A stretch of 22,781 nt of DNA from the IMG/VR virus record IMGVR_UViG_3300032083_002849, positions 1 to 22,781 of that record; one strand, given 5' to 3'. The first letter of the stretch is position 1. Each line of letters begins with the position of its first letter. The notes under the pieces were generated by a model. That model made no database searches. It saw only the letters and a list, made by a program, of their open reading frames with translations, and was not told where the DNA came from. Both the position numbers and the translations under genes were made by a program. Below, piece after piece: positions 435-8,297 of this stretch. This DNA comes from a virus.

Positions 435-1016
435 AATAAGGGAAGTTCATTTAAATGTTGCTCAGTTCTGATGGTGGGTATGTTGTAAAAAATAGTTGTA
501 GGGAACCTAACATCCTGTATAGATTAGATTTAGTTGCCCAGTTTAAAGGGCCCCATACTTTTAAAAGAGAGGGACAACACGTATCCCCACACGTTATATA
601 ACGAACTTTCACTGTGGGCCAACCAACCTTAATGACCCTCTCTTAAAAAGTCCCCATCAAGGAACCCCAGCATAGGGCCCTTGATGAGTAGCTCAGTATT
701 GGTAGAACTTAACACCAGAGAGTTTCTTGGTCACACTCACAACGACAGGTTAGTGCCTGATTGAGGACAGGTCAGCCTAAAATCATTAACCCAACGATCA
801 TTCCCCGCCTTGGTGGTCTACTCTAGGAGTAGTGTCGAGCTGCGTCCCTCTCGCCGTACCTCTGAAGGGGAAATATAATTCTTCAGAGGTAGTCTGTATC
901 ACTCTCCGACCCCACATAGCTTTCACCTCATACAGACAGAGCCTACTCACGGTTTAACTGGGGTTTAGATTATCGTCAACTCATTCATATCTCCTGTCTC
1001 TCTCTCAGTATATCTA
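435..1016. other. largely non-coding stretch with several strong hairpins
   Basis: About 580 nt without a convincing long gene, lying downstream of the minus-strand promoter at 1017-1045. Inverted repeats: 857-867 with 881-891 (perfect 11 bp); 893-900 with 930-937 (perfect 8 bp); 818-823 with 827-832 (6 bp); 655-662 with 679-686 (perfect 8 bp plus an inner GGG/CCC); AAGAGAGGG ending at 573 with its complement starting at 636 (9 bp plus partial extension) around an inner CCCACA (586-591)/TGTGGG (613-618); and a 12-nt palindrome at 592-603. Read on the minus strand, the 655-686 stem is followed after 6 nt by five T, so it may also act as a weak terminator. Very short ORFs with SD-like sequences occur: MNELTII at 965-988 (AGGAG just upstream), MLGFLDGDFLREGH near 673, and the 39-residue ORF listed separately. 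No complete tRNA cloverleaf was found on either strand. A structured phage RNA is possible. Confidence 0.45.
798..917 (-). CDS. possible 39-aa microprotein
   Basis: ATG at 917 follows an SD-like GAGGTG and opens a 39-codon frame (begins MWGRRVIQTTSEEL, ends DHQGGE). The ribosome binding site and start codon lie in the 29-nt loop of the 8-bp hairpin 893-900/930-937, and the coding part contains the perfect 11-bp hairpin 857-891. A nine-codon hydrophobic frame (MIVGLMILG) overlaps its stop in ATGA fashion. The protein has no recognisable domain. The strong secondary structure argues that this DNA may instead specify an RNA, so the call is weak. Confidence 0.25.
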   Translation of the reverse strand: MWGRRVIQTTSEELYFPFRGTARGTQLDTTPRVDHQGGE

Positions 1017-1045
1017 ATAGTACCACACTCAGAGAGGTTTGTCAA
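1017..1045 (-). promoter_or_regulatory. sigma70-like early promoter facing the structured region
   Basis: Minus strand TTGACA (1040-1045), 17-bp spacer, TACTAT (1017-1022) preceded by TGG. The expected start near 1009 is followed by a GAGAGAG-rich leader and an AGGAG before a seven-codon ORF (965-988). No long gene lies directly downstream, so the main product may be the structured RNA of 435-1016. Confidence 0.78.
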
Positions 1046-1051
1046 GCAGAA

Positions 1052-1161
1052 ACTTTCATTCACTGCAAGATTTACGGTGAATACTGTGGCTATTCACTGC
1101 ATGGTTCTACACATGACTTGTCAAGAGAAAACTTTCAGTTAATTCTAAGAGACTTTCAGTT
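1052..1161. repeat. cluster of short direct and inverted repeats beside a decayed promoter
   Basis: Direct copies of ATTCACTGCA occur at 1058-1067 and 1092-1101. ACTTTCAGTT occurs at 1131-1140 and 1152-1161, and the core ACTTTCA also at 1052-1058. GTGAATA (1077-1083) and TATTCAC (1091-1097) form a 7-bp hairpin. On the minus strand the sequence just before the intact -35 at 1040-1045 resembles that before a second TTGACA at 1119-1124 (TGAAAGTTT followed by a pyrimidine-rich link). The second box lacks a good -10 at 17 bp (TGCAGT). This looks like a diverged tandem duplication of a promoter unit. Confidence 0.5.
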
Positions 1162-1240
1162 GGTATCTAGCCTGTGGCTCCAGTAGTCTCAGCCAGTAGT
1201 TCTCTCTTGGGCCCGAATCCTTTCTCTCTCTATTATCTTT

Positions 1241-1269
1241 ATAGTACCACACTTATATGTATTTGTCAA
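1241..1269 (-). promoter_or_regulatory. sigma70-like early promoter
   Basis: Minus strand TTGACA (1264-1269), 17-bp spacer, TACTAT (1241-1246) preceded by TGG. It is followed by the GAGAGAGAAAGG leader type seen after other promoters here, but no good start codon follows the AAGGA. The transcript would run through the repeat cluster at 1052-1161 towards the next promoter. The stop of the 34-residue ORF 1266-1370 lies within its -35 box. Confidence 0.78.
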
Positions 1270-2104: not shown

Positions 2105-2521
2105 TTAATAATCCAGAAATGACCGTAGGTTACGAGAGCGTGAAGGATGTTTCAATTTCCGTAATCCTTTGGCTTCAATCTGACGAATAGGTTCTCCCGT
2201 CATGTTAAATACATTTCCAACCTCTTCCAGAGTGTGAGATTTTACACCCATACCAAACCGCATCCGTAGTACTCGTTCTTCACGAGCTTTCAGAGAGGAT
2301 AGGACGCGAGTCGTAGTTTTCTTGAGTTCAGAGAGCATAGTTTCCTCTTCTGGTGACATTCCCTCATCGGCAAGGTCATATGCATATTCCAAAGGAACTG
2401 CATCCGTCATTTCTATATCAGGCTCTGCAAGAACCTTACAAATTGCAACGTAACGAGATATGTCGTTTTCCCGAATCTCTCGTAGTGCAATACTCTTTTC
2501 CGTAGTCGCAAATACCCACAT
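2105..2521 (-). CDS. stand-alone RpoD region-4-like protein (truncated sigma factor)
   Basis: Residues about 68-138 match region 4 of the primary sigma factor almost end to end: TTTRVLSSLKAREERVLRMR, FGMG, TLEEVG, IRQIEAKGLRKLKHPSRS and the terminal LRSFLDY. The HPSRSR...LRSFLD ending is the alphaproteobacterial style. Regions 1, 2 and 3 are absent; residues 1-60 are unrelated and acidic. Region 4 binds the beta-flap of RNA polymerase and the -35 DNA. In the recognition helix the usual T-R-E-R-I-R-Q is T-G-E-P-I-R-Q here (108-114), so the Arg equivalent to E. coli R584 is Gly and R586 is Pro. The frame extends upstream to 2611, but that part overlaps the promoter 2553-2581. ATG 2521 lies downstream of the expected start site, after a GAGAAAG sequence, and is preferred. 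It may alter host sigma function or recruit polymerase; the exact role is unknown. Confidence 0.88.
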   Translation of the reverse strand: MWVFATTEKSIALREIRENDISRYVAICKVLAEPDIEMTDAVPLEYAYDLADEGMSPEEETMLSELKKTTTRVLSSLKAREERVLRMRFGMGVKSHTLEEVGNVFNMTGEPIRQIEAKGLRKLKHPSRSRNLRSFLDY

Positions 2522-2552
2522 TTTCTTTCTCACTCTCTTTCGATTATTACTT

Positions 2553-2581
2553 ACTATACCACGTTCAGAGGTATTTGTCAA
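2553..2581 (-). promoter_or_regulatory. sigma70-like early promoter of the sigma-region-4 operon
   Basis: Minus strand TTGACA (2576-2581), 17-bp spacer, TATAGT (2553-2558) preceded by TGG. The stop of the upstream gene (2590) is 8 nt from the -35. It fixes the start of the sigma-like gene at 2521 rather than further upstream. Confidence 0.82.
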
Positions 2582-2589
2582 CAAGTTTT

Positions 2590-2892
2590 TTATGCATACC
2601 ACTTGGCCCACATTTCACTCGTAAGAACGGTCACAGGAACATTAAATTCCATATCCCACACCACGAACACAGCTTTCGTATCCATAATCCGAATCTTGAA
2701 AATTTCTTTGAAGCCTTTTCCCCCTTTGACGTTCTTACCCATCTTGGGGGCATTTACTATGGCGGAAGCAACCTCATTTTTGAAGTCTACCATACCGTAT
2801 TTCTTGGTGTTGTGCATAAAATCTTCAGTCTTGAACCGTTCATTGAACCGTTTGACAACATGATATTTGCAATTTTCTTTGTAAGTGTTCAT
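2590..2892 (-). CDS. hypothetical protein (100 aa)
   Basis: Begins MNTYKENCKYHVVKRFNERF and ends SEMWAKWYA. The pattern HVVKRFNERF near the N-terminus and a beta-rich C-terminal half (IMDTKAVFVVWDMEFNVPVT) recall small DUF4258/RelE-like folds, but the match is not strong enough to name. The start at 2892 is chosen because AGGAG lies 7 nt upstream; the in-frame ATG at 2898 is only 1 nt from that SD, and codons further upstream fall within the promoter. Single gene under its own promoter (2925-2953), followed 9 nt later by the next promoter. Confidence 0.7.
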   Translation of the reverse strand: MNTYKENCKYHVVKRFNERFKTEDFMHNTKKYGMVDFKNEVASAIVNAPKMGKNVKGGKGFKEIFKIRIMDTKAVFVVWDMEFNVPVTVLTSEMWAKWYA

Positions 2893-5510: not shown

Positions 5511-8297
5511 TCATATATAATTTGTTTCCACATTATTACCATAGTCAAATGTTCCACTATAATTCTCTAGTGTTACTTCCATGTCTGCGGCTTTGTCACC
5601 ATCTGCATCCATCTGTAGAAGTTTGGTGTTTGTATTATACACCACTTCATGCGTATTTGTATTTCCTGTAAAAGATGGTACGATGTTGAATGTTGTTGTA
5701 ATATTACTTATATCAATTTTATCGTTAGTCTCATCATAGTCTGTAATGGTATCACCAACACCAGCAGGGGAATCTGAAAGGGATTTGTAAATGTATACAT
5801 CACTACCACTTCCACCCTTCAATGTATCTGCACCAGCACCACCATATAACGTATCATCACCATATAATCCAAATAATGTATCGTTGCCATCTAGACCTTC
5901 AAGAGTATCGTTGTTAGCCGTACCAGCGACAATATCGTTGTTATTTGTACCCTGTATGGTGCTGTAACCGTCCGTGACGAGTGATGCTGCAAATTGTAGT
6001 ATATTGGGTGCATATATGTCTTTGAAATTAGGCATTGCTCCTCCAAGATAATAATCAAGTGGTATAGATGAATAGATAACGGCTCCCTGACCATACTTGT
6101 ATGCAAAATCGACTATCTCATCTCCATCACTGGTGGATAGTAATGCAAGTGAATCATTCGGTAATGTGTCTTTCTTGGTGTATCCATGATTAGAACTATT
6201 TCCACCGTCTATTGAACTATCCGTAAGTAGACCCCCTGGCCCTTCGCCAACCACCGTATTCTCATCAACCACATCTATTGCTTGACTGTTCGTAAACTTA
6301 CGCACTATGTCAGCTGGTTCCTCTCCGAATAGAATGTTCTCTGCATTACCCACTTGTCGATCATGTATTACTAATATCATACCCTCATCAACACGCTCCT
6401 TGATACGGTCTACCGCATTGGTATATTCACTACCATAAGAACCATTGGATGGATTGATTGCCCAGAGTATGTCTACACTTGCAAGTTCTGTCTCCGAAAG
6501 TGTGGTCATCTTGACCGCTGTATGTCCGGCGTCCTCTATGGGAGCAACTTGTTTTGAGAGTCCTTGACCATTTGACATAGAATAATAACCTATGCTCAAA
6601 GCTGCATTTATAGTGTCACCTGTTCCACCAACTCCTAATAGATTTGGTTGTGGTTCTACAGTTTCTTCTTCAACTTCCTCTTCAACCACTTCTTCAACTA
6701 CCTCAATATATGCTGGTCTGGCCATTGCCATAAACTTTGGTCTTTCTATAATCTCTGGTTCATTGTAAACTATTTCTACCACTGGTTCTACATAGTGTTC
6801 AACTACATTATGAACTACCATTATAGGTTCTGGTGCTGGTGCAACAAATACAATGTCTGGTACGATAGGTGCAATTGGAATAGGTTTGGGGGCTTCCATA
6901 ATGGGTTTGGGTTGTTCTATTACTGGTTCTGGTGCAACCTCTACAACTTGTTCTGGTTTTGCCTCTAAAACTTCTACAACTTGTTCTGGTTTACCTTCTT
7001 CTATTACCTCGACAGGGGCTTCTTCCACTACAACTTCTTCTGGTGGTTTTTCACCCTCTGGTGGGCCCTCTTCCAACATAACCTCATCTGGTGGTTTCTC
7101 TCCCTCACCCTCTAATAGTTCTGGCTCACCTTCCTCTAGAAGTTCTTCACCTTCACCTTCTATTGGGCCTTCGGGGGCAACGTCTTGAGGGGCATCTCCT
7201 TCTTCTCCACCTTCTTCATTGGGGGCATCGGCATCATCACCCTCTTCCGCATCTGCTGGTTTCTCTTGGTCTTGTGGTTTTTCCTCTGCTGGTTTCTCAT
7301 CGACAACAAACTCCTTGAAAGCTTCTTTTTGGACTTCAAATTCCTGTTTTGCAATCTCTACAACTTCCTTAATATCCTCAACAACCTCTTTGGCAACCTC
7401 TACTTCTTGAACCTTCTCTGCTGCAACTTCTGCAAGTTTCTCTGCTTCTGCAATCGCCTCCTTATCTCCTGTTTCTTCTGCAATCTTCTTGGCCTCTTCT
7501 GCCGCCTCTTTTGCTTCTTCTGCAACCTGCTCCTTATTTGCAACTTCTTGTTCCGCAGCCTTTGCATCATTAGTCGCCTTAACTACCACTGTAGATGACA
7601 ATGTAGTTAAGGTCTTACCGTAACTTTTCTGGATATCCTGTTTACTGAGGACAACTGGTGGTGGTGGAGCCTGTGTCGCACTGGTTAACTGTACTGTTGC
7701 ACCCACTTGGTTCAATACGACAGAACCACTTGAGTTTGTCATCACCAATTCACCAATAATCGGTTTACCATCTCTACCCATTTCTGGTAATAGGGATATG
7801 GTGTTTTCATTACCCTCTGCAGCTGCAACACCGGCGATCTTAGTACCTCGTATACCAATAACACCAACTGGTGTATTCAGCATCATTCCTTCGGGATCAG
7901 TCTTTGCGATTTCACCAGATATGAAAGAGAACACCCCCTTGACCATGTTGGCCGCAAACTTACCCTCTTGAGAATCCTTATTATAAATCATCTCATCAAT
8001 GGTCATCTCTCCGTCTTCACCAAGAGAGAATACTGTACCATCAATGAAAGTAACACCTACAGAACCATCCTCACCTGTTATGATTGTATCACCTTGAAGA
8101 ATAGGGTCATCCTTACTAAGAGCAATCTTTTCACCATCACGAATAACGTGTACTGAACCTTCTATCGTATCAACTCGACCTATTGCATCAGTCTCCGCAG
8201 CAGACACAACTTTAGACGCCATGAACATCCATAGTCCAGCCGTTAAACTCTTTGCGATAGATTTAAGTCCTAGTCTTTTATCTCTGGTAGACAACAC
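5511..8297 (-). CDS. large exported FecR-domain / RTX-repeat protein (928 aa)
   Basis: Domain order seen: a signal peptide (residues 1-34, hydrophobic core TAGLWMFMASKVVSA); a FecR-like domain (about 38-205) with the family pattern GRVDTIEGSVHVIRDGE, LQGDTIITGEDG and LNTPVGVIGIRGT; an Ala/Glu/Lys-rich coiled coil (about 243-330); a Pro/Glu-rich low-complexity region (about 335-550); an alpha/beta domain resembling ThuA/DUF4350 glutamine-amidotransferase-like folds (about 565-772, with VDILWAINPSNGSYG and GMILVIHDR); and RTX calcium-binding nonapeptides (about 784-833, GNDTLFGLYGDDTLYGG). FecR domains with RTX repeats occur in bacterial surface and adhesin-type proteins. The start is GTG 8297 or the adjoining TTG, with AGGGA upstream, 28 nt inside the nuclease gene. 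It is unusual in a replication region and is probably an acquired gene; whether it is a virion or host-surface protein is unknown. Confidence 0.85.
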   Translation of the reverse strand: MLSTRDKRLGLKSIAKSLTAGLWMFMASKVVSAAETDAIGRVDTIEGSVHVIRDGEKIALSKDDPILQGDTIITGEDGSVGVTFIDGTVFSLGEDGEMTIDEMIYNKDSQEGKFAANMVKGVFSFISGEIAKTDPEGMMLNTPVGVIGIRGTKIAGVAAAEGNENTISLLPEMGRDGKPIIGELVMTNSSGSVVLNQVGATVQLTSATQAPPPPVVLSKQDIQKSYGKTLTTLSSTVVVKATNDAKAAEQEVANKEQVAEEAKEAAEEAKKIAEETGDKEAIAEAEKLAEVAAEKVQEVEVAKEVVEDIKEVVEIAKQEFEVQKEAFKEFVVDEKPAEEKPQDQEKPADAEEGDDADAPNEEGGEEGDAPQDVAPEGPIEGEGEELLEEGEPELLEGEGEKPPDEVMLEEGPPEGEKPPEEVVVEEAPVEVIEEGKPEQVVEVLEAKPEQVVEVAPEPVIEQPKPIMEAPKPIPIAPIVPDIVFVAPAPEPIMVVHNVVEHYVEPVVEIVYNEPEIIERPKFMAMARPAYIEVVEEVVEEEVEEETVEPQPNLLGVGGTGDTINAALSIGYYSMSNGQGLSKQVAPIEDAGHTAVKMTTLSETELASVDILWAINPSNGSYGSEYTNAVDRIKERVDEGMILVIHDRQVGNAENILFGEEPADIVRKFTNSQAIDVVDENTVVGEGPGGLLTDSSIDGGNSSNHGYTKKDTLPNDSLALLSTSDGDEIVDFAYKYGQGAVIYSSIPLDYYLGGAMPNFKDIYAPNILQFAASLVTDGYSTIQGTNNNDIVAGTANNDTLEGLDGNDTLFGLYGDDTLYGGAGADTLKGGSGSDVYIYKSLSDSPAGVGDTITDYDETNDKIDISNITTTFNIVPSFTGNTNTHEVVYNTNTKLLQMDADGDKAADMEVTLENYSGTFDYGNNVETNYI

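Follow-up and report, generated by a model that had tools for sequence, protein, structure and literature searches.

The locus and its promoters

The window, by which we mean the whole stretch of DNA analyzed (an IMG/VR record of 22,781 bases), is a piece of a marine T4-like myovirus genome with genes for a gp41-type helicase and for tail tube, baseplate and head-closure proteins. The nearest INPHARED relative of the helicase belongs to Methylophilales phage Melnitz (72.6% protein identity). About 1.4 kb without a credible gene separates a small sigma-factor gene (2105-2611, minus strand) from an ORF at 228-434, and G+C content is 0.45-0.49 at about 500-1000, versus about 0.36 in the flanks. 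The product of the sigma-factor gene has 168 amino acids, and its match to phage sigma factors (phrog_351) is confined to their C-terminal part; the gene is absent from L005 (L-numbers denote IMG/VR loci), which is otherwise nearly identical to the window.

The original prediction for this region was a strongly structured, possibly non-coding RNA at 555-940, with a promoter at 1017-1045 pointing into it. Both are confirmed: the promoter is present on the minus strand, and the stems exist, are conserved and covary across IMG/VR relatives. The proposed extent was too short: the RNA is predicted to start near 1010, it continues beyond 556, and 1269-1137 holds a second cassette. The promoter elements are as follows:

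1241-1269, minus strand: second, tandem early promoter (TTGACA, 17 bases, TACTAT)
1017-1045, minus strand: sigma70-type promoter of the RNA (TTGACA, 17 bases, TACTAT, with TGG before the -10 box); predicted start near 1010
516-544, minus strand: promoter-like element behind the RNA (AAACTG at 544-539, 17 bases, TATACA at 521-516)

Origin of the RNA from the plus strand is less likely: plus-strand folding gives a z-score of +0.53, and the promoters are oppositely directed.

Behind the large forms of the RNA in relatives, AAACTG is followed by a 17-base spacer and then CTATAAATGCAATAAG, about once per contig. Because this spacer is fixed in length yet variable in sequence, the AAACTG-17-CTATAAATGCAATAAG arrangement reads as a putative promoter for the next gene. 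For the same reason we rejected the element (TATAAATGCAATAAG) as a further RNA module, and its occurrence at about one copy per contig disfavors a general T4-type late promoter. AAACTG or GAACTG elements are repeated on the minus strand of the window (544-516, 468-463 and 248-243). In relatives they have G-runs or C-runs on their flanks, and 17-18 bases further on comes TATAAATG, TTCCC or TAACCAG; such repeats may serve a phage factor as promoters or operators.

Structured modules and their covariation

Relatives were found by protein-guided and pattern searches. The same RNA is present in L003, L005, L007, L008 and L010 (99.7%, 89%, 88%, 81% and 87% identity, respectively), and pattern searches with its most conserved parts reached a wider family: two of its modules, A and B, occur in dozens of uncultured phage contigs, whose host assignments are unknown. 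We built covariance models for modules B (R1), A (R2) and D (R3), which match their seed sequences by construction. Five pattern matches (L096, L114, L164, L169 and L170) were set aside as resembling coding sequence or chance; the models found no match in the first four and only E 0.03 in L170.

A protein-coding reading is rejected, as the ORFs of the region are not conserved among relatives, in line with the earlier view that it holds no credible long ORF. Indels of 1 and 13 bases disrupt all reading frames. The frames at ORF 798-917, whose conservation at the amino-acid level would have refuted the prediction, are frameshifted or absent in relatives. Neither ARAGORN nor Rfam calls a tRNA or tmRNA gene in the window; by eye, the region had been judged not to fold as a tRNA.

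Folding of the whole region as a single minus-strand sequence is weak (z -1.30, with 10 of 100 shuffles as good), so that structure cannot be proven by energy alone. Locally, z-scores against shuffles are -2.67 for B, -2.23 for A2, -4.66 for a hairpin at 648-692 and only -0.45 for A; the last value is expected if the main feature of A is a pseudoknot, which lies beyond the folding program. We therefore rely on covariation, proposed beforehand as a check of the stems. Structures were defined on the same alignments used for testing; slid and shuffled controls accompany the tests, and each of A, A2, B and D was tested against independent controls. Two-sided changes in A, A2 and B stand far above these controls.

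The 5' part of the RNA holds a putative minigene and module A:

976-995, minus strand: minigene, with AGGAG (995-991), 6 bases, then ATG AGT TGA (984-976)
988-965, minus strand: frame overlapping the minigene, which would read MNELTII and a stop
882-976, minus strand: module A, predicted H-type pseudoknot (model R2)
964-960/913-909, minus strand: helix P_a of A
952-951/943-942 and 941-939/929-927, minus strand: inner hairpins of A
937-931/898-892, minus strand: pseudoknot helix of A, with two-sided changes in 6 of 7 pairs

In the alignment of A (14 sequences), 98.7% of cells are paired and 9 of 17 pairs show two-sided changes, which supports folding as an H-type pseudoknot. Outside its seed, R2 finds divergent copies in L144 (E 3e-9) and L097 (E 2e-6), both with B downstream of A. 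RNAalifold suggested that the A loop also pairs over a long range with 690-680; this was unsupported across A loci and was dropped.

An ATG followed by a stop after 0-3 codons lies just 5' of A in 13 of 14 loci, versus 3.5 expected from shuffles. In L006 and L007 the UGA of the minigene is changed to UGG, yet UAA or UAG comes immediately next. This enrichment is suggestive and no proof, because the loci share part of their ancestry; moreover, a clear ribosome-binding site precedes only some of the minigenes. From the spacing we infer that a ribosome on the minigene start codon would abut the first helix of A. The bar element of phage lambda is an AUG-stop minigene, a very short translated frame with regulatory effect. 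The axe-txe minigene (PMC8708949) is of the same kind. The minigene of the window differs from both in that it is inferred from sequence only and adjoins a pseudoknot.

Downstream of A lie the following elements:

801-891, minus strand: module A2, with a hairpin at about 890-882/866-858
872-867 (UUCCCC) with 806-801 (GGGGAA), minus strand: loop helix of A2, with a variable intervening segment
655-686, minus strand: hairpin between A2 and B (686-679/662-655 plus inner pairs; z -4.66)
556-648, minus strand: module B, three nested helices (model R1)
644-633/576-565, minus strand: helix P1 of B, 12 bp, every pair covarying
618-614/590-586, minus strand: helix P2 of B, 3 of 5 pairs covarying
603-592, minus strand: helix P3 of B, present in the alignment

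All cells are paired (100%) in the alignment of A2 (9 sequences), with two-sided changes in 11 of 18 pairs; the loop helix reads UUCUGG/CCAGAA in L154 and L155 in place of UUCCCC/GGGGAA, and the hairpin shows an A-U to G-C exchange between the window and L005. These changes support a model of A2 as a hairpin whose loop pairs to a strand past a variable insert. In the hairpin between A2 and B, inner pairs change jointly in L008 and L010.

Module B has the largest alignment (32 distinct sequences): 95.3% of cells are paired, 16 of 20 pairs show two-sided changes, and the covariation score is 0.628, versus 0.181 for shuffled and at most 0.169 for slid controls. Its joining segments AUUAAGGUUGGUUGG, UGAAAG and GUU hardly vary. 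R1 matches about 50 loci, including divergent copies outside the seed in L154 and L029 that the first patterns had missed. In the L154 copy (8888-8795), a joining segment is altered from GGUUGGUUGG to GGAUGGUGGG relative to other B copies, with the spaced GG pairs kept; these pairs might form a two-tier G-quadruplex or make a G-rich contact.

The inverted repeats noticed beforehand fall onto these helices. The perfect 11-bp stem (857-867/881-891) is exact and corresponds to the A2 hairpin; the stem at 655-662/679-686, likewise exact, belongs to the hairpin between A2 and B. The 12-nt palindrome (592-603) is P3, and the nested pair across 558-650 (at 560-576/633-649) is P1. The 8-bp stem given as 893-900/930-937 exists one base away (892-899/930-937) and is the pseudoknot helix of A.

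A further motif, found behind promoters in a search prompted by L039, L013 and L167, also occurs in the window:

1137-1212, minus strand: module D, closing stem and two inner hairpins; divergent in the window

Two-sided changes affect 7 of 17 pairs in the D alignment, where both the closing stem and the inner hairpins covary. R3 matches the window copy with E 2e-7 (this sequence is part of the seed) and finds copies outside the seed in L008 and, as a second copy, in the L154 record. L005 has a 76-amino-acid ORF where the window carries D.

Module combinations and neighboring genes

The window holds two tandem early cassettes, D (behind the promoter at 1269-1241) and A-A2-B. The row is D, A, A2, B in L008 and D, second D, A, A2, B in the L154 record. 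D is combined with B in L013, L039, L091, L093, L100 and L131, and A with a weak D-like element in L027 and L149. In several lineages a 5' module (D or A) thus comes first and B last. Judging by these arrangements, modules are exchanged with B kept last. Per record there is a single A, a single B or one of each, also in contigs of 61.7, 72.0 and 88.8 kb; this single copy is a lower bound, since many contigs are fragmentary.

A or B also occurs alone, as a 5' leader or beside tRNAs. In L147, L152 and L155, A leads directly into a ribosome-binding site and its gene without an intervening promoter, and the same holds for B in about 20 loci. Solo B is followed by genes of unrelated kinds, which encode small secreted proteins, tRNAs (Arg, Trp, Thr, Ser) or, in L124, uvsX. 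The suggestion of a small RNA or regulatory leader before uvsX is supported as to the RNA; the uvsX position holds in the window, L008 and L124 and is not general. In L119, L143, L165 and L168, the promoter of B shares sequence with the terminator hairpin of the preceding gene (for example, AAGAGGGCTTGACATGGCCCTCTTTTTTTGTTA).

tRNAs or tRNA-like arms adjoin B in many relatives and are lacking in the window. In L027, L029, L149, L154, L166 and L167 they lie between B and the AAACTG element. The tRNA-like elements inside the RNA locus, behind B or A in these same six loci (about 7920-8060 in L027, 3893-3995 in L029), have an acceptor-like stem and a GGTTCGAxTCC arm without a normal anticodon arm. 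Most are not called by ARAGORN; one in L167 is called tRNA-Arg(acg).

Interpretation and comparison with known RNAs

That this is a real conserved structured RNA we regard as virtually certain. It is best read as a modular, early non-coding RNA that the phage encodes, structured and at least 450 nt long, with a host-type promoter; its transcription is unproven. The comparison establishes that the structure is conserved, that modules are shuffled, that records have one copy each, close to a promoter, and that no protein is conserved. At least three structured RNA motifs with convincing covariation (A/A2, B and D) are missing from Rfam 15, and in widespread marine viruses phage RNA modules are reshuffled much as protein domains are.

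As to molecular function, which can only be inferred, we lean tentatively, and with less than even confidence, toward a largely stand-alone RNA that takes up a ribosome at its 5' end through the minigene. In the window, this reading is inferred because the next genes have promoter-like elements of their own and vary between relatives. The RNA would be made early from the host-type promoter near 1010, through A, A2 and B, with D in the neighboring cassette, and the folded RNA itself would be the product. A ribosome would probably load at the AUG-stop minigene, its front edge up against the A pseudoknot; the RNA may then act as a scaffold or decoy toward the host translation or transcription machinery. 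RNase P could release the upstream RNA by using the adjoining tRNAs or tRNA-like arms. More speculatively, and in our view improbably, the family may be a mosaic RNA machine of marine T4-like phages: exchangeable modules (A, A2, B, D and tRNA-like), with a ribosome parked by the minigene at the pseudoknot in an undescribed RNA-ribosome or RNA-protein complex. If the RNA does engage ribosomes or RNA polymerase, it would represent an unseen layer of host takeover by uncultured marine phages. Each module is compact and clearly delimited enough for tests in E. coli extracts, with no need for the native host.

A stand-alone RNA lacks transcript evidence, and the solo A and B copies directly before genes with a Shine-Dalgarno sequence, as a cis leader would be, keep another possibility open. 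This close rival, which we also place below even odds, is a 5' leader acting on its own transcript by put-like modification of RNA polymerase that counters pausing or termination, minigene-linked attenuation or 5'-end protection from RNase. The distance from the -10 box down to the module, which fits such a leader, is 33-44 nt for A (13 of 14 loci) and 1-7 nt for solo B. The put antitermination RNAs of HK022, about 70 nt with two stem-loops and present twice per phage (PMC9378689), are likewise located behind early promoters and work on whatever gene comes next (PMC9378689). The RNA of the window shares this position directly behind an early promoter and the indifference to the identity of the downstream gene. 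However, it does not meet the put size and two-stem-loop architecture: A and A2 contain pseudoknots, B nests three helices, the combined size of A, A2 and B far exceeds that of put, and there is one copy per record despite the many early units of T4-like phages. put is thus nearest in position with a different architecture, and there are no data on an effect on RNA polymerase. In L106 and L124, a T run after P1 of B resembles a conditional terminator; however, it is not conserved. What tips us toward the stand-alone RNA over a cis leader is the variation among downstream genes, together with the further promoter-like element behind the large forms.

A ligand- or protein-sensing element (riboswitch or autoregulated leader) governing an early gene would fit the closing stem of B around a strongly conserved junction, with Shine-Dalgarno-led ORFs immediately next. 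We consider it unlikely: downstream genes are unrelated among relatives, no conserved expression platform is seen, and the 4227 models of Rfam 15 give no match to the window at gathering score and nothing credible at E <= 10, with no riboswitch class. In relatives, at gathering score and relaxed E-values, Rfam yields only chance matches and true tRNAs. Furthermore, blastn found no match above noise in near or distant INPHARED phages or in plasmids, the core pattern of B has no match in 84,980 prokaryote species, and the family was not found in the literature searched (open-licence papers only).

GOLLD and ROOL are large ornate phage or prophage RNAs of unknown function, pseudoknotted and near tRNAs, sometimes with a tRNA inside (PMC12286853). 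They are nearest in kind to the RNA described here, which is likewise phage-encoded, large, intricate and pseudoknotted, with variable and conserved regions as in GOLLD and without known function; the GOLLD trait of lying near or holding tRNAs is met in relatives, not in the window. That it is a divergent member of this type is nevertheless very doubtful. The GOLLD and ROOL covariance models match neither the window nor its relatives, even at relaxed E-values, our RNA is shorter, its modules also occur solo behind promoters, and it comes from uncultured marine phages. Unselected intergenic sequence or a repeat artefact, for which only the unexceptional whole-region folding energy speaks, retains next to no credibility given two-sided base changes in four modules against independent controls, and alignment-based covariation has already refuted it for A, A2 and B.

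Melnitz-type marine methylophages carry a permuted tmRNA with a glutamine riboswitch (PMC9004378), another case of regulatory structured RNA in a related T4-like marine phage. The two systems differ: the window has no tmRNA or riboswitch match, and the Melnitz genome has no A or B match at E <= 1 (R2, R1) and no D match at E <= 0.1 (R3). Outside the RNA locus, the window also encodes a 928-amino-acid ORF (5511-8297, minus strand) with, by eye, a FecR-like start, an extended Pro/Glu-rich stretch and glycine-rich repeats resembling those of RTX proteins; in Melnitz, a FecR-domain gene lies among the curli genes.
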